A stretch of DNA of 24,824 bases from a virus: positions 1-24,824 of the IMG/VR virus record IMGVR_UViG_3300004805_000032, one strand, 5' to 3'. The translations under genes and the position numbers were made by a program. Positions 5,660-21,255 of this stretch are shown here, piece by piece. The notes under the pieces were generated by a model. That model was given only the letters and a program-made list of their open reading frames with translations, searched no databases and had not been told where the DNA came from. The stretch's first letter is position 1, and the number at the start of each line of letters is the position of its first letter.

Positions 5660-5664
5660 ATACG

Positions 5665-5696
5665 TACTAATACATACACTTAGAAAATTCCGCCCT
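5665..5696 (-). promoter_or_regulatory. Late promoter-like element, copy 3
   Basis: Minus-strand AGGGC(GGAA), exactly 17 nt, then TGTATTAGTA, one base different from the other copies. It lies immediately before the ATG at 5659. Copy 2 shares the extended AGGGCGGAA box. Confidence 0.7.
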
Positions 5697-9298: not shown

Positions 9299-9326
9299 GT
9301 TTGACTTATAGGTTGATGTCTAATCT

Positions 9327-9358
9327 TACTAATGCAAAAAATTCTTATGTTCCGCCCT
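9327..9358 (-). promoter_or_regulatory. Late promoter-like element, copy 2
   Basis: Minus-strand AGGGC(GGAA), 17 nt, then TGCATTAGTA. The first box overlaps the terminase stop codon, and the -10-like box is about 29 nt before the ATG at 9298. It would drive the portal unit. Confidence 0.72.
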
Positions 9359-10796
9359 ATTGAGTGTATGGGTTGACAAATTTTTTCTTGTTGTCGTCTG
9401 CATATGAATAGTCGCGTGCTGGTAAATAATCAAGTTGAATCCAACCTGAGTCACGCAATACACGCAACGCCTGAGACAGTGAATCAACGTAGTCATCATG
9501 ACCGCCGGCCTCTGGAAATGAACACACTTGCCTAAGAAAACGTTTGGCCCAGTCTGCAAAATCTTTCTTTTGAACGGTATCTTCTGGGATCCACACCTTG
9601 CCTTTAGCCACCAATGGTGCTACAATATTAAGACGCTGCACCTTATCAGCTCGGCCTGGATTGTATCCCCGTACCTCAATGCCTGAACTTTGAAGTTCTT
9701 GAATTAATGAGATACCCGCTGACTTATCTTCCATTAGTACCAGGTCGGCTTTACGCCCCTTACCAAAGTCGTTATCGGCACCATACACTACCTCTTTAAA
9801 GTCGTCAATGACTTTACGGCGCAGTTCTGGGTAAGCTAAGTGTGCATCCCATGCATCAAGTAAGATGACGCCTGTGTCTGAATCCTCTTGTTCAAAAATG
9901 CCCCAGATAGTGCAAGCCGTCGGGTCGTTCATTGTTTTTTCTGAAGTTGCCGGATCATATGATGCAATCACATACTCAAGCACTGGGGTTGGTTTATTAG
10001 CTGGCCACATGCGGAACTGTTTGCGTTTGATGATACCGGCTTGTTCCGGATCCAAGATCTCGCCATAAATCTCTTGGCGGCCTAGGTCTGTGCCGTCATA
10101 TGACTCTAGTTGTTTAAAGAACGTGGCTGACAGGTTGTCTTTGTTATCATAAGACGACGCGTTGACCACGTACACGTCGCCGCCCACCGTTCCCTCATTC
10201 AGATCAACGATGAGCTCTTTTGGTTTAGGTGTTGTGGTGATGATCTGCTGAACTCGAGGTATACGTGGATCTTTAAGTCGCAGCGTAAATTGCACACCGT
10301 CGTATGCTTCATCGAGATAATCAAACGCACAGAGCTCATCGAACCAGGCGCCGTGGTATTGCTTACCACGATAACGTTCTGGTTCGGACGCAGGGATTCC
10401 CTGTATGATAGACCCGTTGGTTAATGTAATTTCAAAGAGTGACTTGTTATAGTCGCGAATAAGCGACTTGGGGATGATGTTCATGAGCCCCGAGTCACCT
10501 TCAAAACAGGTTGCTCGGATGTCGTTTGACGTTGGGGCTGTGACTAACCAGCGTGTGCCCGGGTAACGCCATGCGCGAATACCGATCCAATGCGATGCTG
10601 TGTGGGTCTTGCCAGATCCCCGTCCTGCCAACATGAGGAACGTGTCATATTCCCCGTCTTCAGGTTCTTTTTGATGGGGCAGTGCTTGAAGTGCCCACTT
10701 GGTGCGCCAAATAAGCGCGTCCAGTTGATCTTTGGGCCAATGTTTTCGTGCTGCTGCAAACTTCTTTAATTCAAGTTCTTGTTGTGCTGTTAGCAT
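9357..10796 (-). CDS. terL: Terminase large subunit
   Basis: A 479-residue packaging motor with all expected parts. The ATPase has Walker A AGRGSGKT at 57-64, Walker B HGAWFDE at 148-154 and coupling motif TTT at 187-189. The RNase H-like nuclease has Asp in YDPA at 281, Glu-Asp in LMEDKSAG at 356-357 and a final acidic pair in GGHDDYVDSL at 433-437. Length is normal for the family. The start codon ATG overlaps the end of the upstream Hint gene (ATGCTAA), and a GGAGAAGGA site lies inside that gene, so the two are translationally coupled. No small terminase is recognisable in the window. It cuts concatemers and pumps DNA through the portal. Confidence 0.95.
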   Translation of the reverse strand: MLTAQQELELKKFAAARKHWPKDQLDALIWRTKWALQALPHQKEPEDGEYDTFLMLAGRGSGKTHTASHWIGIRAWRYPGTRWLVTAPTSNDIRATCFEGDSGLMNIIPKSLIRDYNKSLFEITLTNGSIIQGIPASEPERYRGKQYHGAWFDELCAFDYLDEAYDGVQFTLRLKDPRIPRVQQIITTTPKPKELIVDLNEGTVGGDVYVVNASSYDNKDNLSATFFKQLESYDGTDLGRQEIYGEILDPEQAGIIKRKQFRMWPANKPTPVLEYVIASYDPATSEKTMNDPTACTIWGIFEQEDSDTGVILLDAWDAHLAYPELRRKVIDDFKEVVYGADNDFGKGRKADLVLMEDKSAGISLIQELQSSGIEVRGYNPGRADKVQRLNIVAPLVAKGKVWIPEDTVQKKDFADWAKRFLRQVCSFPEAGGHDDYVDSLSQALRVLRDSGWIQLDYLPARDYSYADDNKKKFVNPYTQ

Positions 10797-11788
10797 ACGC
10801 TAATATATCCTTCTCCGGCTAGTATCGAGTTATCATCGCCTGTCGTCTCAATGTGAACCACCATTTGTCCAGGTATCTGATTGATTTTTTTAATATATCT
10901 TCTTGCATGGTGCACTTTTACTGGGTTTGACACTTGGTTTGGTACCAGTGTGTGCTTTGTTCTAAAACTTAACGTGTAATACCCATAGTGCGCGTCTTGT
11001 TTTACCCTAGTCCTGCACCCCAATGACTCTACGAGCCCTTGGATTTGTTGGATTGTTGGAAAATCTCCCGTTGTTATCCTAAACCAGTCGGTTTTTTTAT
11101 CATACTGCCTAGATTTTCCATTAACTAATCCAGACAAGAGCTCGACACGCTCTTCCGGTGACGCCATCAAATAATTTGTTGGTATCTTTGTTGGAATGTT
11201 TGGGGCAAGCTGCCACTCAATGTTTGGTTCTTCGTAAAATCTTTGCAGTCTGCCACGAAATGCGTTGAGTTCTGTGGTCTTATACCCTGCGTCTTTGAAT
11301 TTTTGGTAAATAAAATCTTTGGCTTCTGCATTTGCCGTGAATGTTTTGTGCGCTTTTCTATTAAAGAACCAGTATCCAAAGATAAACGGTGGTATACCAG
11401 GTGTTTGCGCTGGAAACTGAATCGGCTTGGTGGTCGGAATAGAAAATTCTTTCCTATTGTTTCTACCAAATATTCCGGTCTCTTGTATCTCTGCCACACT
11501 TAAGAATTTTAGTGGTCGTTTAAATCCATTCTTTTTGACCATCTTGTATTCGTGCAATCGTTTTCTGTACTTCTCGTTCTCTGCCCTAAATGATAACCTA
11601 GCGTCTCCGCTAATTGTCAGGTAGTCATCAAACGTTATCTCATAACAATCTTCGGCGTGGTACTGCTGAACCAAGGTAACCTGTACCGGCTTACCGTCCT
11701 TATCAAATACCCAGTCCCCCACCTCAATGTGGCGGGCGTACTTCCAATAATCCAAGGTTAATACCGATTGGGTCGCTGTGATTGCCAT
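10790..11788 (-). CDS. Degenerate intein-like (Hint/LAGLIDADG) protein next to terminase
   Basis: A 332-residue protein from the ATG at 11788, which has GGA 9 nt upstream; a longer frame from 11854 lacks such a site. Residues about 8-66 resemble intein blocks A-B (SVLTLDYWKYARHIEVGDWVF ... YLTISGDARLSF), and 310-332 resemble blocks F-G (VVHIETTGDDNSILAGEGYISVC). Key residues are missing: Ser rather than Cys at the expected first position, Ala in place of the block B His, and no His-Asn at the end. The middle resembles LAGLIDADG endonuclease blocks (FIFGYWFFN 135-143, LLSGLVNGK 217-225), but the catalytic acids are not evident. It thus looks like a free-standing, probably splicing-dead intein relative kept beside terminase. 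Its function is unknown. Confidence 0.7.
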   Translation of the reverse strand: MAITATQSVLTLDYWKYARHIEVGDWVFDKDGKPVQVTLVQQYHAEDCYEITFDDYLTISGDARLSFRAENEKYRKRLHEYKMVKKNGFKRPLKFLSVAEIQETGIFGRNNRKEFSIPTTKPIQFPAQTPGIPPFIFGYWFFNRKAHKTFTANAEAKDFIYQKFKDAGYKTTELNAFRGRLQRFYEEPNIEWQLAPNIPTKIPTNYLMASPEERVELLSGLVNGKSRQYDKKTDWFRITTGDFPTIQQIQGLVESLGCRTRVKQDAHYGYYTLSFRTKHTLVPNQVSNPVKVHHARRYIKKINQIPGQMVVHIETTGDDNSILAGEGYISVC

Positions 11789-11799
11789 TAATATATTCC

Positions 11800-11817
11800 A
11801 GACAAAATACTTTGTCT
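11800..11817 (-). promoter_or_regulatory. Hairpin before the Hint gene
   Basis: A perfect 7-bp stem (minus strand AGACAAA-GTAT-TTTGTCT) lies 11 nt before the ATG at 11788 and directly abuts the ribosome-binding region. It could modulate translation. Upstream, TTGCTT-16 nt-TATTAA is a weak candidate promoter for the Hint-terminase unit, which the pqqA terminator would otherwise cut off. Confidence 0.4.
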
Positions 11818-11848
11818 TTAATAAAACGCAAAATATTACAAGCAAACT

Positions 11849-11868
11849 ATGCACCCCGAAGGGTGCAT
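11849..11868 (-). terminator. UUCG-tetraloop hairpin after pqqA
   Basis: An eight-bp perfect stem, ATGCACCC-TTCG-GGGTGCAT on the minus strand, giving the extra-stable C(UUCG)G tetraloop only in this orientation. It begins 6 nt after the pqqA stop codon. The T tract after it is weak (AGTTTGCTTG), so it may act as an mRNA 3' stabiliser as much as a terminator. Confidence 0.65.
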
Positions 11869-11874
11869 GTCATA

Positions 11875-11946
11875 TTACTTGTTCATTACGTACATTGTTA
11901 CTTCAAATCCAAAACGCATTTCAGTAGCTGCTGGTTTAGTCCACAT
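11875..11946 (-). CDS. pqqA: PqqA: precursor peptide of pyrroloquinoline quinone
   Basis: A 23-residue ORF beginning MWTKPAATEMRFGFEVTMY and ending VMNK. It has the length and pattern of proteobacterial PqqA peptides (MWxKPAxxxxRxGxEVTxY). Glu15 and Tyr19, in E-V-T-M-Y, are the two residues that PqqE cross-links and that become PQQ. GGAG lies 8 nt upstream of the ATG. A copy of the late promoter-like element lies about 100 nt upstream, and a UUCG hairpin follows the stop, so the gene is a self-contained late mini-unit. No pqqB-E genes are in the window, so the host would have to process the peptide. It is probably an auxiliary metabolic gene that boosts PQQ for quinoprotein dehydrogenases such as methanol dehydrogenase (inference). 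The match is by memory of the family; no search was run. Confidence 0.9.
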   Translation of the reverse strand: MWTKPAATEMRFGFEVTMYVMNK

Positions 11947-12049
11947 GATGTATCTCCAAGTTTAAAAATAGTTGTAGGTATAAACTAATCGTTTACATCT
12001 ACACTAATTCATAAACTAACCAATAGCTGGCTAAGTATTATCATGATTA

Positions 12050-12081
12050 TACTAATGCACAAACTGGGCCGTTTCAGCCGT
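12050..12081 (-). promoter_or_regulatory. Late promoter-like element, copy 4 (pqqA)
   Basis: Minus-strand ACGGC, 17 nt, then TGCATTAGTA, with one mismatch to the other copies in the first box. It is the only such element upstream of pqqA and gives a predicted leader near 95 nt. A weaker look-alike (minus TGAATTAGTG, same spacing to an unmatched box) lies at 12002-12033. Confidence 0.65.
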
Positions 12082-12114
12082 TGCCTATTTTTTATACAGA
12101 TGTTAAGCAAATTT

Positions 12115-12367
12115 GTACCCCTTTGTACCCCTTTGCAAAAAGAAGTGTGACAATCCAATGCAATCAACAATTTACAGCACAACAATGCGGGTTTGCGGCC
12201 GATTTGATGTTAGTGACCGCTAACCTGCCGACCCGCTTGTACCAAGGTTGAGTACCCCTTGTCACACTTGTCACACTTCTTTTTACTTTTTTAATTTTTT
12301 TTAATAAAATAAAAAGAGATACAAGGGAGAATAAAGTGAGAACAAGTGTGACAAGTGTGACGAAGTG
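12115..12367. repeat. Left arm of 253-bp long inverted repeat
   Basis: This 253-bp block recurs in reverse complement at 20017-20269 with the same length and, by eye, about 80% identity. It starts GTACCCCTTTGTACCCCTTTG and ends with AAGTGTGACAAGTGTGAC. Within it, iterons AAGTGTGACA lie at 12143, 12344 and 12353, with inverted copies at 12260 and 12269 flanking an A/T-rich centre. GTACCCC repeats lie at the outer end. No ORF is supported here. It may be an origin, an operator array or a recombination site. Confidence 0.9.
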
Positions 12368-12394
12368 ATTTAAATCAATGACTTACAAGCAAAG

Positions 12395-12436
12395 AAGTGT
12401 GACAATTTTTAAAAAAAAAAAATTTTAAGTGTGACA
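12395..12436 (+). repeat. Two further AAGTGTGACA iterons
   Basis: Copies of AAGTGTGACAA at 12395 and 12427, 32 bp (three helical turns) apart, flank an A-run and lie outside the long inverted repeat. This gives seven copies on this side of the early module and supports binding by a dedicated protein. Confidence 0.75.
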
Positions 12437-12545
12437 ATTGCCAGGTTGGGCTGGATTATAAGAACTGGTTTTCTTTGGGGCCCCCGCCCCGCCGCCCTCC
12501 GATGGTACCTAAAAGGGGTGATGCGATAAAGAAAAAGCCCCCCTA

Positions 12546-12561
12546 CTGTACGCACGTACAA
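12546..12561. promoter_or_regulatory. LexA-box-like palindrome 1
   Basis: CTGTACGCACGTACAA inside TACTGTACGCACGTACAATA. It fits CTGT-N8-ACAG, the Escherichia coli-type LexA consensus, except for the last base. It is paired with a perfect copy 50 bp away. Binding by LexA or a phage repressor is inference. Confidence 0.45.
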
Positions 12562-12595
12562 TAACCACGACACCAGCATGGTTATTAGGCACGCA

Positions 12596-12611
12596 CTGTA
12601 CGATCGTACAG
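12596..12611. promoter_or_regulatory. LexA-box-like palindrome 2
   Basis: CTGTACGATCGTACAG is a perfect 16-bp palindrome and matches CTGT-N8-ACAG exactly. Between it and the first site lies an 8-bp inverted repeat, AATAACCA/TGGTTATT (12560-12586). Confidence 0.5.
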
Positions 12612-12620
12612 GCAGATCCG

Positions 12621-12692
12621 TAATGAGAATCATTCGCATCTAGGTGAGGCGCTTGATTGGTACGCTCACCTAGATGCGAATGATTCTCATTA
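12621..12692. repeat. Perfect 28-bp inverted repeat with Fur-box-like arms
   Basis: The arms 12621-12648 and 12665-12692 are exact reverse complements around a 16-nt loop. Each arm contains TGAGAATCATTCGCA, matching 11 of 14 positions of the Fur half-site pattern TGATAAT-N-ATTATCA. The structure could extrude as a cruciform, form a very stable RNA hairpin, or serve as paired operators. There is no T tract, so it is not a standard terminator. Confidence 0.8.
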
Positions 12693-12707
12693 GCATTGAG
12701 GCAATGC

Positions 12708-12792
12708 CCACACTATCAGCATGGCTATGTGGTGGGCTGACAGATAACCATGCTGGCAGTGTGGCTACATACCCATGCTGGCAGTGTGGCTA
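12708..12792. repeat. Direct and inverted repeats beside the origin
   Basis: CCATGCTGGCAGTGTGGCTA occurs at 12748-12767 and 12773-12792 (25-bp period). A diverged inverted copy lies at 12708-12724, and GGCTATGTGGTGG occurs twice (about 12723 and 12788). The repeats lie directly left of the DnaA boxes, as iterons often do at origins. Confidence 0.7.
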
Positions 12793-12876
12793 TGTGGTGG
12801 ATAGGCGTGTGCGAGGGTGCTAGGGTGGTGGATAGCGTAAAGACCTCTCGACATCGGACAGTCAGCACCCCATTTC

Positions 12877-13047
12877 TGTGGATAACTCTGACAAAGTTAT
12901 CCACAAACCGTCCACAAGATATCCACAGAATAGTACACAGCATATCCACAGGCATACCTTGGTACTGGTATTCAGAATTAATAAAGTGGCTCAAAACGCG
13001 TTAAAATGCGTCCTAGAGGCATGTCATTTTGCCAATCCTGTGGATAA
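12877..13047. other. Putative replication origin: DnaA-box cluster
   Basis: Perfect DnaA boxes (TTATCCACA or its complement) lie at 12877-12885, 12897-12905 and 13039-13047. Near-perfect ATATCCACA copies lie at 12919-12927 and 12942-12950. The first and last sit in an identical 15-bp context, CTGTGGATAACTCTG. Five boxes in 171 bp of non-coding DNA, with repeats to the left and the divergent gene switch around them, indicate a host DnaA-dependent origin. The unwinding region is not identified; an A/T-rich tract follows at about 12975-13000. Confidence 0.7.
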
Positions 13048-13073
13048 CTCTGCGATTCTACGGTTTGATAGTT

Positions 13074-13100
13074 TGTCACAAATGATTCACAAAACATTCA
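13074..13100 (+). promoter_or_regulatory. Upstream element of the first early promoter
   Basis: TGTCACAAA, GATTCACAAA and CATTCA follow each other at about 10-bp spacing. Nearly the same 27 bp recur at 16376-16402, in both cases upstream of a TATAAT-like box and a GTAGTAAA motif (here CATAAT at about 13130). It is probably an activator or repressor array for an early promoter that reads the first plus-strand operon. Confidence 0.5.
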
Positions 13101-13192
13101 CAGAACTGAAATAATTTAGAGGCATCGCATAATGTAGTATGAAGACTGTAGTAAAGAAGTTCCCGAAACCACCTATTTAGAGGATGCAAACC

Positions 13193-13429
13193 ATGACAAC
13201 AGTACAACAATTAATCGATGCACTACAAAAGGTCGAAGACAAAAACGGCGCAGTCGAAATCGCAGTAAGCTTTCAGGATGGATATCCAATATATGCGGAC
13301 ATTGTGCCGAATGTATGGGATAACATTTTAGTCAACAGTCCATGGGGAAGCATCCGTATTCTTGCGGATGTCAAGCCGGCATCATTGGTGACTCATTACG
13401 CAGTACGTGAGATGAAAAACAAAGCTTAA
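13193..13429 (+). CDS. Small early protein, unknown (78 aa)
   Basis: The start is MTTVQQLIDALQKVEDKNG. The earlier in-frame ATG at 13184 is part of the recurring leader GAGGATGCAAACC and is taken as ribosome-binding sequence, because the same leader precedes four other genes. The protein has an N-terminal helix, then strands, and WGSIRILADVKP. The stop TAA lies inside helix I of hammerhead ribozyme 1. No family is recognised. Confidence 0.6.
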   Translation: MTTVQQLIDALQKVEDKNGAVEIAVSFQDGYPIYADIVPNVWDNILVNSPWGSIRILADVKPASLVTHYAVREMKNKA

Positions 13430-13477
13430 CTGATGAGACCTCAATGGTCGAAACCGGCAGAGATGCCGGTCTTAAGC
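13424..13477 (+). ncRNA. Hammerhead ribozyme 1 (type I)
   Basis: The full core is present in order: helix I strand GCTTAA (13424-13429), CTGATGA (13430-13436), helix II GACC/GGTC with loop TCAAT, GAA (13450-13452), helix III ACCGGC/GCCGGT with a 6-nt loop, C17 at 13471, helix I return strand TTAAGC (13472-13477). Cleavage is expected after 13471 at a GUC triplet. All pairs are Watson-Crick. The upstream stop codon lies in helix I, and the cut falls 30 nt before the next ATG. Confidence 0.92.
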
Positions 13478-13501
13478 AAATAACCTAAAAGGATGCAAAC
13501 C

Positions 13502-13693
13502 ATGACAATACACGTAGACCACAAACCAATAGCAGTATGCTATGTCGACACAATCGGCAAGAAGCTTCGTGCCTTCTTCGGCACGGACTCAATTGACAAT
13601 GCTATGAAAATAGCAAAAGACCACAAGAGCGCATTCGGCACAATGATTGTGCTAGATGTCGCCACATCAACAATTATCGCCACAGTTAAATAG
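13502..13693 (+). CDS. Small early protein, unknown (63 aa)
   Basis: Starts MTIHVDHKPIAVCYVDTIGK after AACCTAAAAGGATGCAAACC. The ATG at 13493 inside GGATGCA is rejected for the reason given for the gene before. It is a mixed alpha/beta protein with GTMIVLDVATSTIIATVK at the end. It is the first gene behind ribozyme 1 and has a 30-nt leader after cleavage. Function unknown. Confidence 0.55.
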   Translation: MTIHVDHKPIAVCYVDTIGKKLRAFFGTDSIDNAMKIAKDHKSAFGTMIVLDVATSTIIATVK

Positions 13694-13704
13694 GACACGA
13701 CACC

Positions 13705-13932
13705 ATGAACATACAAGCAATCATCGTAAACGGCAATGACTACCACCCAATAGCGCTTAAAGACGTGAAAGCCGGCGAATTCGTAGTACGCAAAGCCGGC
13801 GCTAAAACAGTATTCACTCGAGGCGATTATGACCGTGCCTCCAAGACATACGCTCTTGACGACTACAATGAGCATTGTCGTCAGGTCTTTTTAAAAGGCT
13901 CTACCATCGTTTACATCGGTTTTTCATACTAG
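13705..13932 (+). CDS. Small early protein, unknown (75 aa)
   Basis: A mostly beta protein: MNIQAIIVNGNDYHPIALKD at the start, then GEFVVRKAGAKTVFTRGDYD and a hydrophobic end STIVYIGFSY. The pattern of strands with regularly spaced basic residues would suit a small nucleic-acid-binding or SH3-like barrel, but this is a guess. A weak site (GGACACGACACC) precedes the ATG. Confidence 0.55.
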   Translation: MNIQAIIVNGNDYHPIALKDVKAGEFVVRKAGAKTVFTRGDYDRASKTYALDDYNEHCRQVFLKGSTIVYIGFSY

Positions 13933-13943
13933 GAGGCAATACC

Positions 13944-14132
13944 ATGACAACAATCGAATTGATTAGACTCGCGACTGACGAGCTCAAAGCGGACAACGAC
14001 TGCGCCGAAGCCAAAGCCAAAGCATTGGCACAGGCACAGAGCGCTAGACTGCGTGAGAGGCACGAACGTTTAAGGGCATACCTCAACGCAACGACCGGCG
14101 TTACACTCTTCAACAAGCTTGAGATTAACTGA
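13944..14132 (+). CDS. Small helical early protein, unknown (62 aa)
   Basis: The start at 13944 is chosen because AGGAGG lies 7 nt upstream. The protein is a single long Ala/Arg/Glu-rich helix (ADNDCAEAKAKALAQAQSAR, then LRERHERLRAYL), probably a coiled coil. Its stop codon TGA (14130-14132) is part of the CTGATGA catalytic core of ribozyme 2, an unusual coding/ribozyme overlap. Function unknown. Confidence 0.6.
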   Translation: MTTIELIRLATDELKADNDCAEAKAKALAQAQSARLRERHERLRAYLNATTGVTLFNKLEIN

Positions 14133-14174
14133 TGAGACCTCAATGGTCGAAACCGACGTGAGTCGGTCTTAATC
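14123..14174 (+). ncRNA. Hammerhead ribozyme 2 (type I)
   Basis: Helix I GATTAA (14123-14128) with return TTAATC (14169-14174); core CTGATGA (14129-14135); helix II GACC/GGTC with loop TCAAT; GAA (14149-14151); helix III ACCGAC/GTCGGT with loop GTGA; C17 at 14168. Compared with ribozyme 1, helices I and III have changed on both strands while the core is identical, which is covariation. The helix I strand and half of the core overlap the end of the upstream gene. The cut is 30 nt before the next ATG. Confidence 0.92.
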
Positions 14175-14198
14175 AATAACCTATAAGGATGCAATATT

Positions 14199-14462
14199 AT
14201 GAGAATCACAGACGACACCAAACAAATCTACGGCAGAAACCAAGATTTCCATTTTTACGCATCGAATGCGATGGAATGGATGACCGGCGACGACCTTGAG
14301 AGCATAGTCAAAAAGATTCGCAAATCATCGAAGACCGGTCGATATGGCGAATTACATTTTTGGGTTTTTTACGTGCCTTTGAATATCAAAGAGGCAGAGT
14401 ACCAAATCAATAATTATGTGCCACAGGTCGACGGCATTATTTTTCTTGGCGAGTATAAATAA
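14199..14462 (+). CDS. Small early protein, unknown (87 aa)
   Basis: Starts MRITDDTKQIYGRNQDFHFY after TATAAGGATGCAATATT, the ribozyme-type leader. It is rich in aromatics (FHFYASNAMEWM, LHFWVFYVPLN) with a central helix LESIVKKIRKSSKTG, so probably a compact alpha/beta domain. No family is recognised. The gene's last bases contain the promoter of ardC. Confidence 0.55.
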   Translation: MRITDDTKQIYGRNQDFHFYASNAMEWMTGDDLESIVKKIRKSSKTGRYGELHFWVFYVPLNIKEAEYQINNYVPQVDGIIFLGEYK

Positions 14463-14473
14463 ACTGTTATAAT
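14446..14473 (+). promoter_or_regulatory. Sigma70-type promoter for ardC
   Basis: TTGGCG (14446-14451), 16-nt spacer, then TGT-TATAAT (-10 at 14468-14473 with an extended TG). Transcription would start near 14480, just before the 5' hairpin at 14483. This is the best housekeeping-type promoter seen on the plus strand. Confidence 0.6.
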
Positions 14474-14482
14474 CTTGACCTA

Positions 14483-14500
14483 GGGAGGCAGATGCCTCCC
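14483..14500 (+). promoter_or_regulatory. 5'-leader hairpin of ardC
   Basis: GGGAGGC-AGAT-GCCTCCC, a perfect 7-bp GC-rich stem. It takes the place in the gene-to-gene cassette that hammerhead ribozymes take elsewhere, directly before the common leader AACCTAAAAGGATGCAATA. It would cap the 5' end of the ardC mRNA, or act as a weak terminator of the previous unit (no T tract). Confidence 0.6.
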
Positions 14501-14525
14501 GATTAACCTAAAAGGATGCAATAAA

Positions 14526-15368
14526 ATGACAAACCAATACCAAGCAATTACAGACACCATCATCAAGGCGCTCGAGTCAGGATCAGCGCCATGGGTGAAA
14601 CCATGGAATGCGACGACATCCGGTCTCGATCGCAATGTCGTCACAGACCGTCAGTACAACGGCATTAATCGCCTATTACTCGGGATGCAAGGTCGCACGT
14701 CGCCATTGTGGGCGACGTATAACCAATGGCAATCAATCGGCGCTCAAGTACAAAAAGGCGAGAAGTCGACGACCATTGTGCTATTCAAACCGGTCAGTAA
14801 AGAGCGCACGAATAGCGACGGCGAGACCGAGGTATCATCATTCGCCATGATGAAAAGCTTTGCCGTATTCAATGCTGACCAAACAGACTACCAAGCGCCA
14901 TCCATCGAGCTCGGCGAATTCAATTCGATCGCACAATGCGAAGAGCGCATGATCAAGACCGGCGCAATAATCAATCATGGCGGCGATTCAGCATTCTATC
15001 ATCCATCGACCGATAGCATCCGACTCCCGATCCCAAGTGATTTTGAGAGCGAGGCATCATACTATGCGACGGCATTCCATGAGCTCGCTCACTGGACTGG
15101 CGCAAAACATCGCCTAGACCGTACCTTTGGCGCTCGCTTTGGCGACTCACAGTATGCGCTCGAAGAGCTCGTCGCAGAATTGACTAGCGCTTTTTTGTGT
15201 GCAGATCATCACATCGACGGAAAGCTTCAGCACACAAACTACATCGCATCATGGTTAAAAGCGCTTAAGGACGATAACCAAGCGATCTTCAAGGCATCAG
15301 CGCTCGCTCAAAAGGCATCCGATTACCTGTTGACATTGGATGTTCAAAAGCAGAAAATGGTGGCTTAA
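14526..15368 (+). CDS. ardC: ArdC-like antirestriction protein (ssDNA-binding domain + metallopeptidase-like domain)
   Basis: A 280-residue protein with two parts. Residues 1-about 130 form the DUF1738/ArdC N-terminal domain that binds single-stranded DNA, with the usual SAPWVKPW and YNGINRLLL motifs (19-27, 44-52) and the YNQWQSIGAQVQKGEKST segment. Residues about 150-280 are a zincin-like domain with HELAH at 185-189, HRLDR and EELVAEL (213-219, likely third ligand). ArdC proteins of plasmids and phages protect incoming DNA against restriction enzymes, and their peptidase motif is conserved. The gene has its own promoter and 5' hairpin, and ribozyme 3 follows its stop by 4 nt. Early expression fits a role in the first minutes of infection. 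Confidence 0.9.
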   Translation: MTNQYQAITDTIIKALESGSAPWVKPWNATTSGLDRNVVTDRQYNGINRLLLGMQGRTSPLWATYNQWQSIGAQVQKGEKSTTIVLFKPVSKERTNSDGETEVSSFAMMKSFAVFNADQTDYQAPSIELGEFNSIAQCEERMIKTGAIINHGGDSAFYHPSTDSIRLPIPSDFESEASYYATAFHELAHWTGAKHRLDRTFGARFGDSQYALEELVAELTSAFLCADHHIDGKLQHTNYIASWLKALKDDNQAIFKASALAQKASDYLLTLDVQKQKMVA

Positions 15369-15372
15369 ATCA

Positions 15373-15424
15373 GTCGTACTGACGATCGCTGAATGCGTGA
15401 AACCGGCATCTGCCGGTATACGAC
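15373..15424 (+). ncRNA. Hammerhead ribozyme 3 (type I, variant)
   Basis: Helix I GTCGTA (15373-15378) with return TACGAC (15419-15424), again perfectly paired but of new sequence; core CTGACGA (15379-15385), differing only at the tolerant position 7; helix II CGC/GCG with loop TGAAT but a U-U mismatch next to the core; GAA (15399-15401); helix III ACCGGC/GCCGGT with loop ATCT; A17 at 15418 (GUA triplet). It should cleave after 15418, 28 nt before the next ATG. The helix II mismatch may slow it. Confidence 0.82.
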
Positions 15425-15446
15425 AAACCTAAAAGGATGCAATACC

Positions 15447-16082
15447 ATGACAATAACATCAGTAATTCAATTCGTACCAAAGCTTTCAAAACCAAAAAAG
15501 ATGCCGTGCCACACGTTTAGTACTCCAGCACAGGCATGTATCACAGGATCAAAACTCGCCAAGGTCAAGGGATCAGTTTGTTTCGACTGCTATGCTAAAA
15601 AAGGCAATTATCATTTCCCTAATGTGAAAGCGCCTCGAGTCCATAATCTTGGACTTATTCAGTCCGATCTAGTCGCATGGTCAGCATCGATGATCGAGTC
15701 CATCCGTACCAATGAAAAGACCGGTTTCTTTAGGTGGCACGATTCCGGCGACCTACAAAGCTTTGATCATTTAATCGCCATCATCAGCATTGCCAATGCA
15801 TTGCCACAGATCAAATTTTGGATTCCTACCAAAGAGAAGGCATTCATTGCCAAGCTTAAGCGCTCTGATATCAGCGTGCCGGCAAATTTAGCGATCCGCC
15901 TATCGATGCCAATGGTCGACCAAGCGCCGATCACATCGACATGGGCGCTCACATCCACAGTACACCAAAAAGCAGAGGCATTCGGCATGTCGTGCAATGC
16001 GTACCAAAACGACGGCAAGTGTGGTGTCTGCCGTGCATGTTGGAATACAGACATCGCCAATATCTCATATCCAAAACACTAA
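15447..16082 (+). CDS. GP88-like cysteine-rich phage protein
   Basis: A 211-residue protein. The start at 15447 follows the common leader CCTAAAAGGATGCAATACC. Eight cysteines lie at 21, 31, 45, 48, 183, 192, 195 and 198, in the patterns CFDCYAKKGNY and CGVCRACW, with RWHDSGDLQS at 96-105 between them. This layout matches the phage family known as GP88, whose function is not established. The Cys groups could bind zinc or an iron-sulfur cluster. It follows ardC and ribozyme 3 and precedes the tiny-gene run. Assignment to GP88 is from pattern memory. Confidence 0.65.
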   Translation: MTITSVIQFVPKLSKPKKMPCHTFSTPAQACITGSKLAKVKGSVCFDCYAKKGNYHFPNVKAPRVHNLGLIQSDLVAWSASMIESIRTNEKTGFFRWHDSGDLQSFDHLIAIISIANALPQIKFWIPTKEKAFIAKLKRSDISVPANLAIRLSMPMVDQAPITSTWALTSTVHQKAEAFGMSCNAYQNDGKCGVCRACWNTDIANISYPKH

Positions 16083-16096
16083 TCGGAGGCATCAAA

Positions 16097-16375
16097 ATGA
16101 AAGCTTATAAAGACCTAGTACAGTACGCATTAAAAAACAATGATACTGTTTCAGTATATGACGGCGAAGAATGGGCAGTACGGCGCTCGGCATCATTCCA
16201 AGAGATCATCGATGCAATTGAGTCCGTCGAGGAGGCAGAATTACGCATCCGAGATCTTGATGGTAATAGCAAGGCATGGGCGCTGATCGTGCATGATACC
16301 GGTGAGGACGAACACGTCGCAGACCACACAGACAATGTGTACATGGATGGATGGTCTGAACAGTACTTCAAATAG
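16097..16375 (+). CDS. Small acidic early protein, unknown (92 aa)
   Basis: Start at 16097 after GGAGGCATCAAA. It is acidic, with N-terminal helix MKAYKDLVQYALKNNDTVSV, then FQEIIDAIESVEEAELRIRD and a C-terminal part with a Trp (SKAWALIVHDTG). It ends 1 bp before a regulatory array and promoter, so it closes the first early operon. Function unknown. Confidence 0.6.
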   Translation: MKAYKDLVQYALKNNDTVSVYDGEEWAVRRSASFQEIIDAIESVEEAELRIRDLDGNSKAWALIVHDTGEDEHVADHTDNVYMDGWSEQYFK

Positions 16376-16429
16376 TGTCACAAAACATTCACAAAAGATT
16401 CATACTCGGACTGACCATCCGAGTATAAT
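16376..16429 (+). promoter_or_regulatory. Second early promoter with operator-like hairpin
   Basis: A 27-bp array like that at 13074 is followed by inverted repeat ATACTCGG/CCGAGTAT (16402-16426, 9-nt loop). Its right arm overlaps a perfect TATAAT (16424-16429). The -35 box is poor (CATACT), suggesting activator dependence or repression through the inverted repeat. The mRNA would begin the long tiny-gene operon at 16468. Confidence 0.6.
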
Positions 16430-16467
16430 TAGTAGTGTAGTAAATCAATTAACTCAAGGAGATTCAA

Positions 16468-16728
16468 ATGGATTTAAGTAAATTTGTAGAGCAGTCAAAT
16501 GGTAAGTTCGTCACGGTCGAGTTCATCAAAAAAGATGGCTCACTGCGTAAGATTAATGGTCGTCTTGGTGTGACATCAGCGCTCAAGGGAGGCAAGAGCA
16601 CACTAGATGCTAATCAATACATCACGATCTATAGCATGGCAGATCAGGGATATCGTGCGATCAACAAGGACACCATCCAATCGGTCAGCATCGAGGGTGT
16701 GATGATGGTTAAAAAGGGAGGCAAGTAA
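16468..16728 (+). CDS. Small beta-barrel-like protein, unknown (86 aa)
   Basis: First gene of the second early operon, with AAGGAGA 6 nt before the ATG. The segment FVTVEFIKKDGSLRKINGRL, then YITIYSMADQGYRAINKDTI and VSIEGVMM, looks like an SH3-like or Sm-like small barrel with a basic C-terminus (KKGGK). Such folds often bind nucleic acid. That is inference; the family is not recognised. Confidence 0.6.
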   Translation: MDLSKFVEQSNGKFVTVEFIKKDGSLRKINGRLGVTSALKGGKSTLDANQYITIYSMADQGYRAINKDTIQSVSIEGVMMVKKGGK

Positions 16729-16730
16729 TC

Positions 16731-17045
16731 ATGCAATTTAAAACACATAACCAAACATATGTACGCACCCATGGTACATCATTACAGGGATATATCACCA
16801 CAGAATATAACACGCTTAAAAAAGCATTCGGCAAACCAAACTGTAGCGACGAGTACAAGATCGATGCGGAGTGGGACATCGAATTCAGCGACGGTGTGGT
16901 CGCCACAGTTTACAATTGGAAAGACGGTAAAAACTACCTAGGCGCTGACGGCACACCAAAAACCAAGATCACTACTTGGCATATTGGTGGCAAATCTCAA
17001 GAGGCAGTCGATCGTATCATCACACTATTGGAGGCATTAAAATGA
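16731..17045 (+). CDS. Conserved-looking phage protein, unknown (104 aa)
   Basis: Landmarks are SLQGYITTEYNTLKKAFGKP, AEWDIEFSDGVVATVYNWKD and TTWHIGGKSQEAVDRIITLL. This arrangement (GYI...FGKP...W.I.F.DG..ATIYNWKDG...WHIGG) is one I recall in several aquatic phage small proteins without a function. The C-terminal EALK is set by the GGAGGCA site that serves the next gene. Confidence 0.65.
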   Translation: MQFKTHNQTYVRTHGTSLQGYITTEYNTLKKAFGKPNCSDEYKIDAEWDIEFSDGVVATVYNWKDGKNYLGADGTPKTKITTWHIGGKSQEAVDRIITLLEALK

Positions 17046-17218
17046 GCACTAAAGACAAAAGAAATTGGTTAACACAATATGAAACCGATTGGATTTTAGA
17101 TGGCGCAAGCGCATCTGATATATTTGATTTAATGATGGGCGGATGGATTGGGTATGCCAACATGACCGACGATCAGATTGATGAATACTATGATCAGCGT
17201 ATGAAGGAATTATCATGA
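17042..17218 (+). CDS. Small protein, unknown (58 aa)
   Basis: The ATG overlaps the previous stop (ATGA), and GGAGG lies in the end of the previous gene. Sequence MSTKDKRNWLTQYETDWILD, then IFDLMMGGWIGYANMTDDQI. It is probably helical, with several Trp residues and an acidic second half. Function unknown. Confidence 0.6.
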   Translation: MSTKDKRNWLTQYETDWILDGASASDIFDLMMGGWIGYANMTDDQIDEYYDQRMKELS

Positions 17219-17451
17219 GCAAATTGTATAGCATCACAGGATTTGATTATTTAGAATTATCTGACAAAGCAAGATCTCGTGTTAAAAATTGGCTCGATGA
17301 TAATCCGTTTGAGTATGATGATGATAATGGGATTGTAAGATTCGAGTACCCTAGCGATTGGGACGAGGGCACAATCGGTGCGCATTGCAATGACAATGAG
17401 TATATTTTTGATGTAGACGGCAGACCAATTCACAATTTAATTGAGGGATAA
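17215..17451 (+). CDS. Small acidic protein, unknown (78 aa)
   Basis: An ATGA overlap with the gene before. Strongly acidic: WLDDNPFEYDDDNGIVRFEY and PSDWDEGTIGAHCNDNEYIF. The charge pattern is reminiscent of DNA-mimic proteins, but no known family is recognised. Confidence 0.6.
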   Translation: MSKLYSITGFDYLELSDKARSRVKNWLDDNPFEYDDDNGIVRFEYPSDWDEGTIGAHCNDNEYIFDVDGRPIHNLIEG

Positions 17452-17455
17452 CACC

Positions 17456-17719
17456 ATGATCATTACAGTATATTCAGATGCCGGTCACGCATGGGCAAAG
17501 GTCAAGAAGCAATTCTTATCCAAGCTTGGCATCGATAAAGAGATCAGTCGCTATAGCTATCAGCGAGGCGACTATGCATATCTTGAGGAAGACAGCGATC
17601 TTACCAAGCTTTGCATTGCACTCGATGCCAATGGTGTACAGTACGCATTCGACGAGAAGCATGCATACGAGCGCCCTAGCAAGATCAGATCATATCAATC
17701 ATACAAAGTGGAGGCATAA
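17456..17719 (+). CDS. Small protein, unknown (87 aa)
   Basis: The start at 17456 (GAGGGATAACACC before the ATG) is preferred over an in-frame ATG at 17441 inside the upstream gene. MIITVYSDAGHAWAKVKKQF, then FLSKLGIDKEISRYSYQRGD and a C-terminal helix with YERPSKIRSYQSYKVEA. The phrase YSDAGHAWAKV is one I recall from phage small proteins of unknown role. The terminal EA codons contain the next ribosome-binding site. Confidence 0.62.
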   Translation: MIITVYSDAGHAWAKVKKQFLSKLGIDKEISRYSYQRGDYAYLEEDSDLTKLCIALDANGVQYAFDEKHAYERPSKIRSYQSYKVEA

Positions 17720-17721
17720 TC

Positions 17722-17937
17722 ATGGCACACATGAAACAAACAGAAAACGGTACATGGTACTTGGCAGATGATTGGCATTTTGACGATGTGCAGAGCATGA
17801 GACCGGACTTAAACGAAGACCAATGTGTCCATGTACTCGAGGCGATGGCGGATTGGTTTGATGCGAATGACGGTATCAATTGGGATGTCATTACAATGAC
17901 TGCCGATCAATTATATCCACAGGAGGACGAAGAATGA
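17722..17937 (+). CDS. Small very acidic protein, unknown (71 aa)
   Basis: Asp/Glu/Trp-rich (WYLADDWHFDDVQSMRPDL, MADWFDANDGINWDVI, end YPQEDEE), with very few basic residues. It starts 2 nt after the previous stop, with GGAGGCA before the ATG. Acidic small early phage proteins sometimes act as DNA mimics against host defence; this is only an inference from composition. Confidence 0.6.
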   Translation: MAHMKQTENGTWYLADDWHFDDVQSMRPDLNEDQCVHVLEAMADWFDANDGINWDVITMTADQLYPQEDEE

Positions 17938-18176
17938 TTATCAGCGACGAGTTAAAAGCCAAGGCAATAGAACAGGCAAGGGAATTCCTGAAAGACCATG
18001 ACAATGAATGGGCAGACCATTGGGACGCAGTCATGATCGATGACAAAGACGGATATGAGATTAACATATACCAAGAGGGCGCAGACGAACCATTGTTTGT
18101 TATACTGTACGAGGTGAAAGACCTTGGTATTAACTATGGTAATGAGATGGACATCACACAGGAGGTGTTAGCATGA
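17934..18176 (+). CDS. Small acidic protein, unknown (80 aa)
   Basis: The ATG overlaps the previous stop codon (ATGA), with GGAGG upstream. An N-terminal helix MIISDELKAKAIEQAREFLK is followed by acidic strands (VMIDDKDGYEINIYQEGADE, LFVILYEVKDLG). Function unknown. Confidence 0.6.
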   Translation: MIISDELKAKAIEQAREFLKDHDNEWADHWDAVMIDDKDGYEINIYQEGADEPLFVILYEVKDLGINYGNEMDITQEVLA

Positions 18177-18436
18177 ACTACAATCTATACACATTAGCGC
18201 AATTAGATCGCATCAGCCGAGACGGCGACCTTGACGAGTTTACCAAGGCAGTACTTGAAAAGGCGCTCGACATCGAGGCAGAACTTGACGCTATCAAAGA
18301 CGTGCTATCGTCATGGGACTATGATACAGACTTCACCATACTTGATGAAGAACTGCACGACGTGCGCAACCAATTGGCAAGCTATGCAGACGAGAGCAAA
18401 GAACTAGACAGACTACGTGAGGAATTATCAAAATGA
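18173..18436 (+). CDS. Small helical acidic protein, unknown (87 aa)
   Basis: An ATGA overlap with GGAGGTG upstream. Sequence MNYNLYTLAQLDRISRDGDL, then FTKAVLEKALDIEAELDAIK and a C-terminal coiled coil ending LDRLREELSK. It is probably a helical bundle. Function unknown. Confidence 0.6.
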   Translation: MNYNLYTLAQLDRISRDGDLDEFTKAVLEKALDIEAELDAIKDVLSSWDYDTDFTILDEELHDVRNQLASYADESKELDRLREELSK

Positions 18437-18603
18437 AACCAATCTATTCTAAAGTAAAATCAATCAGCCATATTGTTATGTCACTTGAATTACTCGAGCA
18501 ATACCTAAATGATTTTGAGGATAGTACTGCATTCCAAGATCAGATTAAGGAAGACAAAGACACATTAAGATTGGCGATCGAAGAGTTGGAGGCATTACTA
18601 TGA
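18433..18603 (+). CDS. Small helical protein, unknown (56 aa)
   Basis: A short gene in the same overlap pattern: its ATG is part of the previous stop (ATGA), and its own stop TGA overlaps the next ATG. It starts MKPIYSKVKSISHIVMSLEL and ends RLAIEELEALL. The GGAGGCA for the next gene lies in its last codons. A helical, acidic peptide; function unknown. Confidence 0.6.
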   Translation: MKPIYSKVKSISHIVMSLELLEQYLNDFEDSTAFQDQIKEDKDTLRLAIEELEALL

Positions 18604-18812
18604 GCACAAAGTTTGAAGTACAAGAGTTTACATTATGTGATGGATGGATTAACACATGGTCGGATGACGACGGCGCGAGTATGTTTGAATCCAAAAAACA
18701 GGCAGAGGCAGAACTTGATTGGTTTTTACAAGAGATGTTAGAAGCAGTCGAAGAGGGTAACATGGAAGACGTACCGGATCGTGAAGACTTTCGTATTGTG
18801 GAGGTAAAGTAA
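18600..18812 (+). CDS. Small acidic protein, unknown (70 aa)
   Basis: Starts MSTKFEVQEFTLCDGWINTW (GGAGGCATTACT before the ATG). The middle is ESKKQAEAELDWFLQEMLEA and the end VPDREDFRIVEVK. The segment FTLCDGWINTW is a pattern seen in small phage proteins of unknown role (from memory). It overlaps the following gene by one base (TAATG). Confidence 0.6.
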   Translation: MSTKFEVQEFTLCDGWINTWSDDDGASMFESKKQAEAELDWFLQEMLEAVEEGNMEDVPDREDFRIVEVK

Positions 18813-18931
18813 TGCCTCGTAAACCAAAGCGCACGTTCACAGACAAATTAGAGTATGCATTCGTGTGGTTATCAATATATGGATTAGTTGTATACGTAGT
18901 ACTTCGATTAACAGGACATTGGGAGGCATAA
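18812..18931 (+). CDS. Single-span membrane peptide (39 aa)
   Basis: Basic N-terminus MPRKPKRTFTDKLEYAF, then one membrane segment WLSIYGLVVYVVLRL (about residues 19-33) and a short tail GHWEA. The positive-inside rule puts the N-terminus in the cytoplasm. Its last codons carry GGAGGCA for the next gene. The one-base overlap and good ribosome-binding site support a real gene. Confidence 0.6.
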   Translation: MPRKPKRTFTDKLEYAFVWLSIYGLVVYVVLRLTGHWEA

Positions 18932-18932
18932 C

Positions 18933-19139
18933 ATGGAACTAAAGATTCACGTCGACTCGGATCAATTGCATGACATGGTTAAGGCAAGCTTGGTCGAGTA
19001 CCATGATTATTTAAGCAAGGCAAATTGGATGAATGAGGATGATAACAGAATTAAAATCCGAGATGCGTTTGTGATAGTGCTCGAGCAATACATGACACCA
19101 AAGGAGTATGCAAACTACATTGCAAGATTTGTGAATTAG
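18933..19139 (+). CDS. Small protein, unknown (68 aa)
   Basis: GGAGGCATAAC directly precedes the ATG. Sequence MELKIHVDSDQLHDMVKASL, then LVEYHDYLSKANWMNEDDNR and IVLEQYMTPKEYANYIARFV. It is probably all-helical after a first strand. Its stop TAG shares a base with the GTG proposed for the sigma gene. Function unknown. Confidence 0.6.
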   Translation: MELKIHVDSDQLHDMVKASLVEYHDYLSKANWMNEDDNRIKIRDAFVIVLEQYMTPKEYANYIARFVN

Positions 19140-19750
19140 TGGTATATTCGGGGGATTCCAACAATGGAGAATTCCCCTTGAAAGATAATTACGACACACT
19201 AAACCAATACTTGCAAGGTTTGTTTGGCATTGAGCCATTGCCGGTTAAAGAAGAGCACGAACTAGCAAGGCGAATTCAAGCCGGCGATGATAAGGCATTA
19301 GACAAGTTGGTTAAGCATAACTTGCGATTTGTGGTGTACGTATTAAAACAGACATCGGCATGGAATCATGGCAACACACCGGTCGATGACTTAATTAACA
19401 TAGGCAACGAGCAATTAGTAAAAGCGGCAAAGAGGTGGGTACCCACTAACAATGCTCGCTTTGCTACCTTTGCCAAGTCTTTTATATTAAAAGGCACACG
19501 CAGAGAACTTGATAACACGACGCACATGATCAGACTGCCGGTGAATATATCAGAGCAGATTAAAAAGATGAGCTACCTCGAACGCACCCTTGGTCAAGTG
19601 CTCGGTCGTAAGCCAAAGACATCGGAGGTGGCAACGATGATGGGTGTAGGTGAAAACAAGGTGCTACAATTGCAGTCGTACTTAATTCGAGAGCCTGTAA
19701 GCCTCGATGCTATTAACGAAGAAAATACAGAGGATAATCATCATGAGTAA
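19139..19750 (+). CDS. Phage sigma factor lacking region 4
   Basis: A sigma70-family protein of 203 residues (GTG start overlapping the previous stop as TAGTG). An alternative TTG at 19178 has GGAGA 7 nt upstream and would give 190 residues. Region 1.2-like sequence lies at about 24-50 (YLQGLFGIEPLPVKEEHELA). Region 2 at about 53-130 has LVKHNLRFVVYVLKQT, PVDDLINIGNEQLVKAAKRW and ARFATFAKSFILKGTRREL, the -10 recognition part. Region 3 at about 133-192 has GRKPKTSEVATMMGVGENK and the REPVSLDA linker. The protein ends there, so region 4, which reads -35 boxes and binds the beta flap, is absent, as in T4 gp55. It most likely redirects host RNA polymerase to the late promoter-like elements of the minus-strand module. 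Confidence 0.88.
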   Translation: MVYSGDSNNGEFPLKDNYDTLNQYLQGLFGIEPLPVKEEHELARRIQAGDDKALDKLVKHNLRFVVYVLKQTSAWNHGNTPVDDLINIGNEQLVKAAKRWVPTNNARFATFAKSFILKGTRRELDNTTHMIRLPVNISEQIKKMSYLERTLGQVLGRKPKTSEVATMMGVGENKVLQLQSYLIREPVSLDAINEENTEDNHHE

Positions 19751-19940
19751 AAAAATATCTCAATCAGAAATTCATAACGAAGACGGCGACATGATACGCA
19801 TTGAATTCTATGACACCAATGGCGAGCACATTGTCGATGCACTTTGGGATGAAAATGATGCACAGACACCAGAGAATCGAATTGAATTCAGAAAGTGGGC
19901 ATATCACATGATGAGGCAGAAAGGATACAAAATTGATTAA
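19743..19940 (+). CDS. Small acidic protein, unknown (65 aa)
   Basis: Start at 19743 (GAGGATAATCATC before the ATG), overlapping the sigma gene end by 8 nt. MSKKISQSEIHNEDGDMIRI, then FYDTNGEHIVDALWDENDAQ and RKWAYHMMRQKGYKID. Coupled with the sigma gene, it might be a partner or anti-sigma, but nothing in the sequence proves it. Confidence 0.58.
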   Translation: MSKKISQSEIHNEDGDMIRIEFYDTNGEHIVDALWDENDAQTPENRIEFRKWAYHMMRQKGYKID

Positions 19941-20016
19941 ATATATAGCAATGTTTGTTTTGTTATACTTATTAGTTATATATTTGGCAGTTGTTATAAT
20001 TAATTTTTTAATTTGA
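19933..20016 (+). CDS. Possible membrane peptide (27 aa, TTG start)
   Basis: TTG at 19933 with AAGGA 8 nt upstream opens a 27-residue frame that is almost wholly hydrophobic (KYIAMFVLLYLLVIYLAVVI) and ends at the edge of the right repeat arm. An internal ATG at 19951 would give 21 residues. It resembles other one-span peptides of this module. The A/T-rich context makes chance possible. Confidence 0.35.
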   Translation: MIKYIAMFVLLYLLVIYLAVVIINFLI

Positions 20017-20269
20017 GTACCACTTGTCACACTTGTCACACTTAAATTCACTTTATCTCTATATCTCTTTTTCTTTTTCTTATTTTAAATTAAAAAAGAG
20101 AAAAGAAGTGGTACAAGTGTGACAAGGGGTACACGACCTTGGTGCAAGCCGGTCAAAATGATAGTAGTCACTAACATCAAATCGGGCTAAAACCCGCATT
20201 GATACGCTGTAAGATGTTGATTACATTGGATTGTACCACTTCTTTTTGCAAAGGGGTACAAAGGGGTAC
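20017..20269. repeat. Right arm of 253-bp long inverted repeat
   Basis: Reverse complement of 12115-12367, same length. Here several iterons have changed together from AAGTGTGACA to AAGTGGTACA (20106 and inverted at 20016 and 20232), while AAGTGTGACA is kept at 20115 and inverted at 20025 and 20034. AAGGGGTACA/T occurs at 20124, 20251 and 20261. The centre is A/T-rich, and a short CGGG/CCCG hairpin lies near 20183. It separates the sigma operon from the primase operon. No gene is supported within it. Confidence 0.9.
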
Positions 20270-20725: not shown

Positions 20726-20930
20726 CCACTTCTGTCCGGCAGAACGGACGATGCTTGATTTTGAGGGTGAATGTAATTGGTGCGGCAAGAAAGAAGAAAA
20801 ACCAATGAATAAAATGCAAAAATTAAATCGAAAGATGTTAAAAGCATACGCACACCACAAAATTAAAAAAGCTAAACGACTTGAGTGGAAAATAATTAAA
20901 ACTATATTAAAAGGAAAATTTTATGACTAA
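20718..20930 (+). CDS. Small zinc-ribbon-like basic protein (70 aa)
   Basis: MISHFCPAERTMLDFEGECN with C-N-W-C at 19-22: a possible Cys/His metal site. The rest is very basic and helical (KMQKLNRKMLKAYAHHKIKK), so nucleic-acid binding is plausible. It overlaps its neighbours by 8 bp on both sides. Function unknown. Confidence 0.55.
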   Translation: MISHFCPAERTMLDFEGECNWCGKKEEKPMNKMQKLNRKMLKAYAHHKIKKAKRLEWKIIKTILKGKFYD

Positions 20931-21255
20931 CGATAAACGGGCATTATACGAGGCGCTGATGAAAGAGCCGATGACACTTAACCAATTGATCAAAGAGCTT
21001 AACTTCACCAAAAACAAGGCATACTACCAGTTAAAGTCGCTAGAAAAAGAGGGGCTTGTCACCTTAAAATCGATCAATTACAGAAACAAGGTATATGCAG
21101 TCACTGGTAAAAAATATGCACAGAATTCAAACGTTCATGTATACTTAAACCTACGTCGTCCATCAAGCGACTACACATGGCAAAGAAAGAAGTACAAGGC
21201 AGGAAGTGGTACGGGATCAATGCAATCTAGCATGAGCCTGTTTGAATCAGCATAA
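20923..21255 (+). CDS. Winged-helix DNA-binding protein
   Basis: A 110-residue protein with an N-terminal winged helix: ALYEALMKEPMTLNQLIKEL (helices 1-2), NFTKNKAYYQLKSLEKEGLV (recognition helix) and VTLKSINYRNKVYAV (wing). The tail from about residue 70 is basic and disordered. AAAGGA precedes the ATG. It is a candidate to bind the iterons of the inverted repeat just upstream, or to help the primase-helicase encoded next. Both are inference. Confidence 0.7.
   Translation: MTNDKRALYEALMKEPMTLNQLIKELNFTKNKAYYQLKSLEKEGLVTLKSINYRNKVYAVTGKKYAQNSNVHVYLNLRRPSSDYTWQRKKYKAGSGTGSMQSSMSLFESA

Follow-up and report, generated by a model that had tools for sequence, protein, structure and literature searches.

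The question raised by this locus is why a phage should carry two copies of one non-coding element several kilobases apart. The window analyzed here, a linear IMG/VR fragment of 24,824 bases (record IMGVR_UViG_3300004805_000032, positions 1 to 24,824), contains two such copies, designated arm A and arm B (Table 1), with a spacer of 7,649 bp between them. Judging from the sequence of the window and of related contigs, the two arms are probably (about three chances in four) the two sites of an iteron-bearing replicator, used by a self-loading primase-helicase that is encoded beside arm B.

Two Copies of One Element and Their Gene Setting

Arm A on the plus strand was aligned over its full length with arm B on the minus strand. 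The BLASTN alignment spans 254 columns with 83% identity (252 bits, E 9e-68), and a repeat search found an ungapped core of 201 nt with 84% identity. The local alignment score was 287, versus a mean of 20 and a maximum of 34 for shuffled sequence. Thus, the inverted repeat with equal arms and about 80% identity reported in the original prediction was confirmed. The repeat search of the window also indicated that each arm holds a smaller inverted repeat inside itself.

Arm A lies inside the divergent spacer 11855-13183 and arm B between position 19940 and the primase operon; both are upstream of operons. Genes directed leftward encode terminase, a large protein at the portal position and other putative structural proteins. 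Those directed rightward encode ArdC, a GP88-like protein, a sigma-70-like factor, a winged-helix protein and a D5-type primase-helicase. The arms had been described as bracketing the early module; the pair is real, but part of the early region lies beyond it, as the primase operon begins just outside arm B.

The pattern AAG[TG]G[TG][GT]AC has 21 matches in the window, 19 of which fall in the arms (10 in arm A, including two immediately within the right edge on the early-gene side, and 9 in arm B), in agreement with the ordered iterons that had been predicted. An A/T-rich centre was likewise found in both arms (Table 1, 40-mers). Its supposed conservation was not observed, since its letters are less conserved than the remainder of the arm.

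Table 1. Coordinates of the arms, their sequence elements and the proposed initiator in the window.
Feature	Position	Strand	Remarks
Arm A	12115-12367	+	Iteron-bearing non-coding element; divergent region between leftward terminase operon and rightward early genes
Outer iterons, arm A	12115-12151		AAGGGGTAC twice on -, AAGTGTGAC once on +
IHF-consensus-fitting site AATCAACAATTTA, arm A	12162-12174	+	
Three head-to-tail 9-bp iterons, arm A	12252-12278	-	AAGGGGTAC, AAGTGTGAC, AAGTGTGAC; left of the A/T-rich centre
A/T-rich centre, arm A	12275-12314		7.5% GC; candidate unwinding element
Two 9-bp iterons, arm A	12344-12361	+	AAGTGTGAC; right of the A/T-rich centre, opposite orientation
IHF-consensus-fitting site AATCAATGACTTA, arm A right edge	12373-12385	+	Conserved across the family
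Three perfect DnaA boxes TTATCCACA	12877-13047		Starts 12877, 12897 and 13039; arm A intergenic region
Arm B	20017-20269	-	Second copy, inverted here; between open reading frame 19707-19940 and primase operon
Three 9-bp iterons, arm B	20017-20043	-	AAGTGGTAC, AAGTGTGAC, AAGTGTGAC
A/T-rich centre, arm B	20058-20097		12.5% GC
Three 9-bp iterons, arm B	20106-20132	+	AAGTGGTAC, AAGTGTGAC, AAGGGGTAC
IHF-consensus-fitting site AATCAACATCTTA, arm B	20210-20222	-	
Outer iterons, arm B	20233-20269		
PriCT_2/D5_N/DUF5906 primase-helicase	21267-23552	+	Proposed self-loading initiator
Predicted winged helix at the C-terminus of the primase-helicase (about residues 662-761)	23250-23549	+	Resembles RFX-DBD and the origin-binding domain of P4; proposed to read the iterons
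IHF, integration host factor.

Recurrence of the Element Pair in Related Contigs

When viral contigs were searched in two scans, with primase and terminase as queries, about 160 loci were obtained. Both places, the terminase side and the region upstream of the primase, were present in 32 contigs representing about 20 distinct lineages. All 32 contain the pair of non-coding elements, the terminase-side copy being 68-93% identical to the primase-upstream copy. Each of the eight near-complete records (51-66 kb) has exactly two sites.

Gene order and strand are constant across the relatives, and the intervening genes never switch strand. According to the best-scoring alignments, the two copies are inverted in 12 of the 32 contigs and direct in the other 20. 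Comparison of contig L162 with its close relatives L135 and L163 showed that the orientation of arm A was kept and arm B was turned round in place. Since the copies may be inverted or direct and arm B has been flipped alone, the orientation of the arms does not matter. The distance from arm B to the primase gene also varies among relatives and can reach 1-2.6 kb.

Iterons, IHF-Type Sites and Concerted Evolution

A 40-base stretch with a GC content of 0-12.5% was present in every arm checked; in the window it is flanked by opposed iteron arrays. In 651 kb, 54 tandem repeats had a period of 9, of which 42 lay within 21 kb of arms; the other periods between 5 and 20 gave 0-6 repeats each. The 9-mer itself varies by lineage, examples being AAGTGTGAC, GACACAGAA, ACCCCCGCA, ACCCTAGCA and GTCACAGTA. 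It is common to both arms of one genome and mostly not shared with other lineages. In 482 of 496 genome pairs, the similarity between a genome's own arms A and B exceeded that between the A arms of the two genomes, the exceptions being close relatives only. These two observations demonstrate that the two arms of a genome evolve in concert. The likeness within a genome spans whole arms and not the iterons alone, for which reason gene conversion between the copies probably occurs.

In addition, k-mer counts across arms of distinct lineages yielded the motif AATCAAnnACTTACA, which fits the consensus WATCAANNNNTTR of the integration host factor (IHF) (PMC10380432). Sites fitting this consensus numbered 56 in 40 arms of 20 lineages, versus 1.7 ± 1.2 in dinucleotide shuffles. 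They were present in 34 of the 40 arms, at a density 46-fold above that outside arms. Of the 11 perfect DnaA boxes in the set, 9 lay near arm A, where they are clustered in the window and some relatives.

The Predicted Initiator and Its Proposed Mode of Action

The primase-helicase encoded downstream of arm B matches PriCT_2 (66.9 bits), DUF5906 (48.7 bits) and D5_N (34.7 bits), all above the curated cut-offs; an archaeo-eukaryotic primase domain is fused in it to a D5-type superfamily 3 helicase. The best sequence match in the PDB is the SaPI5 primase-helicase (7ola, E 6e-29), in the N-terminal primase part, and a fold search returned NrS-1 primase and D5-type helicases, with 7ola also present. 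When the C-terminal 140 residues were modelled separately, a winged helix was predicted with a mean predicted local distance difference test (pLDDT) value of 77. The best VIA matches of this model are RFX-DBD (Z 10.7) and RFX5 (Z 10.4), and the origin-binding domain of phage P4 (1ka8) is matched with Z 8.8 over 84 residues at a root-mean-square deviation of 2.9. In the branch of D5-type helicases from staphylococcal cassette chromosomes mec (SCCmec) and Staphylococcus aureus pathogenicity islands (SaPI), the C-terminal domain binds origin iterons (PMC7581432). From the predicted fold, we propose that the C-terminal winged helix of the phage protein may read the iterons.

When genomes with the same iteron but distant proteins were compared in pairs, primase residues 700-741 were more often identical than expected (p about 0.002) and the primase N-terminus showed no such excess, which hints at the C-terminus as the part that covaries with the iteron. 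Two other candidate readers were rejected. The small protein 19707-19940 is conserved beside arm B, but it is acidic and does not covary with the iterons (p 0.54). The winged-helix protein 20923-21255, considered as a universal reader, is present in the closest relatives only, whereas the iterons are universal.

Taken together, these data suggest that the arms are copies of one replicator element in which the 9-bp iteron arrays point away from the A/T-rich centre. The primase-helicase would bind the iterons through its C-terminal winged helix, so that two helicase rings could form on the opposed arrays, with the DNA bent by IHF. Melting of the A/T-rich centre by the enzyme, and its loading at that point, would follow. 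Of the two arms, A is the likelier start because of its divergent intergenic position and the DnaA boxes found nearby in the clade of the window. Arm B may serve as an additional start, or as a partner site like P4 crr or SPP1 oriR; from its place just ahead of the initiator operon, it may also allow that operon to be regulated by the initiator. More tentatively, with the odds somewhat short of even, the two replicators may be kept matched by concerted evolution, the 9-bp iteron code having been switched repeatedly together with the winged helix of the primase-helicase, and their orientation being free. If so, the family would provide a natural series for reading the recognition code of P4-type origin-binding domains.

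Several results weigh against this proposal. RFX proteins, which are transcription factors, outscore the P4 domain in the C-terminal fold comparison. The p value for primase residues 700-741 is uncorrected for 37 windows, and the sigma factor also covaries with the iteron type (p 0.001). As the sigma factor is positive too, covariation does not single out the primase as the iteron-binding protein, whose identity we infer. The IHF-type motif of the family is tighter than the general consensus (the free positions often read nnAC) and could therefore be the target of a different protein. Only a minority of lineages have DnaA boxes close to arm A. GC skew revealed no clear origin; the AT-skew minimum lies in arm A in 7 of 8 genomes, but it coincides with divergent transcription. 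Accordingly, skew was discarded as evidence on the origin.

Alternative Explanations

Three functions had originally been suggested for the repeat: two copies of an origin, operator arrays, or recombination sites. The origin option is the best supported, in view of the iterons, the A/T-rich centre, the IHF-type sites, the DnaA boxes, the P4-type primase-helicase beside arm B and the recurrence of the pair. That the arms are instead operator or enhancer arrays coordinating the divergent early/late region with the primase operon, bound by the winged-helix protein 20923-21255, by the sigma factor or by the initiator acting as a regulator only, seems unlikely. The location of both arms ahead of operons and the covariation of the sigma factor would fit such arrays, and iterons ahead of an initiator gene are often autoregulatory; regulation may therefore exist in addition to an origin. 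On the other hand, a sigma-70 promoter scan of both arm regions gave matches at chance level only, and the winged-helix protein has the narrow distribution noted above. Arm B flips in place and can be far from the primase gene, and IHF sites with an A/T-rich centre between opposed arrays suit an origin better.

Inversion of the 7.6-kb segment, by which the early genes would be re-oriented, is the least probable explanation and was rejected. The long inverted repeats with 83% identity in the window are what such a switch would use, but the direct copies of the 20 contigs would delete the segment and not invert it. The gene block was found in a single orientation in all contigs, one arm can flip alone, and a separate contig (L084) with an identical arm A has the same genes joined on both its sides as in the window. 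Among the larger genes of the window no recombinase was identified with Pfam and PHROGs; the small open reading frames were not all scanned. A functionless pair, left behind by gene conversion or representing a mobile non-coding element, is also very improbable. The within-genome likeness of whole arms and the probable conversion would fit this view, but every genome has exactly two copies at two fixed places, and the period-9 iterons and IHF-type sites are kept while the remaining sequence diverges.

Other Features of the Window

Three hammerhead-ribozyme-like sequences are located between early genes (13423-13477, 14122-14173 and 15372-15424). In two of them the core reads exactly CTGATGAG...CGAAAC...GTC and the stems are paired; these two match Rfam Hammerhead_1 with 26.7 bits (E 0.001) and 20.4 bits, both below the gathering score of 34; the third (CTGACGA...GAAA...GTA) was recognized by eye. 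Similar cores are present in L008, L043, L064, L073, L144 and other loci. Judging by their sequence, these elements could cut the early mRNA into pieces. Within 13477-15453, several early genes have almost the same start-site context, AACCTAAAAGGATGCAATA-ATG, in many cases immediately following a ribozyme-like sequence.

A stand-alone intein-like protein that ends with GEGYISVC is encoded at 10790-11854, directly upstream of the terminase gene, and adjoins it in nearly all relatives. It shows weak matches to a homing endonuclease and an intein-bearing terminase. The divergent spacer also contains a perfect 28-bp inverted repeat with a 16-base loop (12621-12692, TAATGAGAATCATTCGCATC...), reminiscent of a Fur box and followed by direct repeats at 12704-12800. 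The repeated motif TACTAATGCA...CCGCCCT was found upstream of leftward genes at 1703-1735, 5664-5696, 9326-9358 and near 12046-12075; in the form TAATGCAAA it occurs near the arms in 11 of 20 lineages. It may be a late promoter used by the sigma factor of the phage.

Wider Occurrence and Comparison with Known Systems

Similar duplicated non-coding elements were found in public records of three distant phages whose primase is related (about 32% identity). The elements measure 398 bp in Flyfo podovirus Tbat2_2 (93%), 375 bp in Morganella phage Henu15 (96%) and 269 bp in Proteus phage RS10pmA (99%). In all three, the copies are in direct orientation and carry iterons and the same (A/T)ATCAAnGACTTA motif; the pairs are unannotated in the Morganella and Proteus phage records. 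Klebsiella phage VLCpiS10a has one motif-bearing, iteron-rich spacer with no second copy detected, and no such element was detected in Salmonella phage 9NA; two sites are therefore no rule for all such primases. As for the closest named terminase relatives, no element pair was found in all of MW202545 or in 17 kb of Caulobacter phage GB2A.

Two-site iteron replicators are known from few models, namely P4 and SPP1, and searches of the open-access literature on P4 ori/crr and on dual iteron origins turned up no account of the present paired-element case. The putative two-site replicator is a fixed feature of a large group of uncultured freshwater phages, with a related form in some cultured enterobacterial phages. 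The differing 9-bp iterons and homologous initiators of about twenty lineages make DNA reading by a P4-type origin-binding domain directly testable, as well as the reason for keeping two sites. The interest of the system rests on this breadth and on the natural series of iteron changes.

In P4, iterons near the origin and a second iteron-bearing cis site some kilobases away are read by one protein. The window resembles it in having a helicase-type initiator with a predicted winged-helix C-terminus like 1ka8 and two separated sites that share iterons, only two per genome in the eight near-complete records; a single initiator may read both. The N-terminus, in contrast, is an NrS-1-type archaeo-eukaryotic primase with PriCT_2 and not the P4 alpha primase domain, so the replicon is not a strict member of the P4 type. 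Moreover, the phage is tailed and has its own structural genes, and both copies combine 9-bp head-to-tail arrays around the A/T-rich centre with IHF-type sites.

The SaPI/SCCmec elements (SaPI5 Rep, Cch2) share with the window a D5-type self-loading helicase. Cch2 requires the iteron AAGTG (PMC7581432); the main iteron of the window also starts with AAGTG, which may be a coincidence. These elements have a single origin directly downstream of the helicase gene (PMC7581432), whereas here two elements 7.6 kb apart lie upstream.

In SPP1, oriL and oriR have a similar organization, with direct repeats and an A/T-rich unwinding element; they are served by one phage initiator, and one origin is located at the initiator gene (PMC6316719). 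The anatomy of the arms suggests the same design of two similarly built elements with repeats and an A/T-rich stretch. SPP1, however, uses gp38 with the helicase loader gp39 and the DnaB-type helicase gp40, whereas a single primase-helicase is proposed here, and arm B is intergenic, unlike oriL, which is located within its gene. According to one proposal, the SPP1 initiator at oriR halts replication forks and sets off the synthesis of concatemers (PMC6316719); this is one possible role for the second site of the window. By analogy, the best reading is that the pair of arms would work like ori/crr of P4 and oriL/oriR of SPP1.

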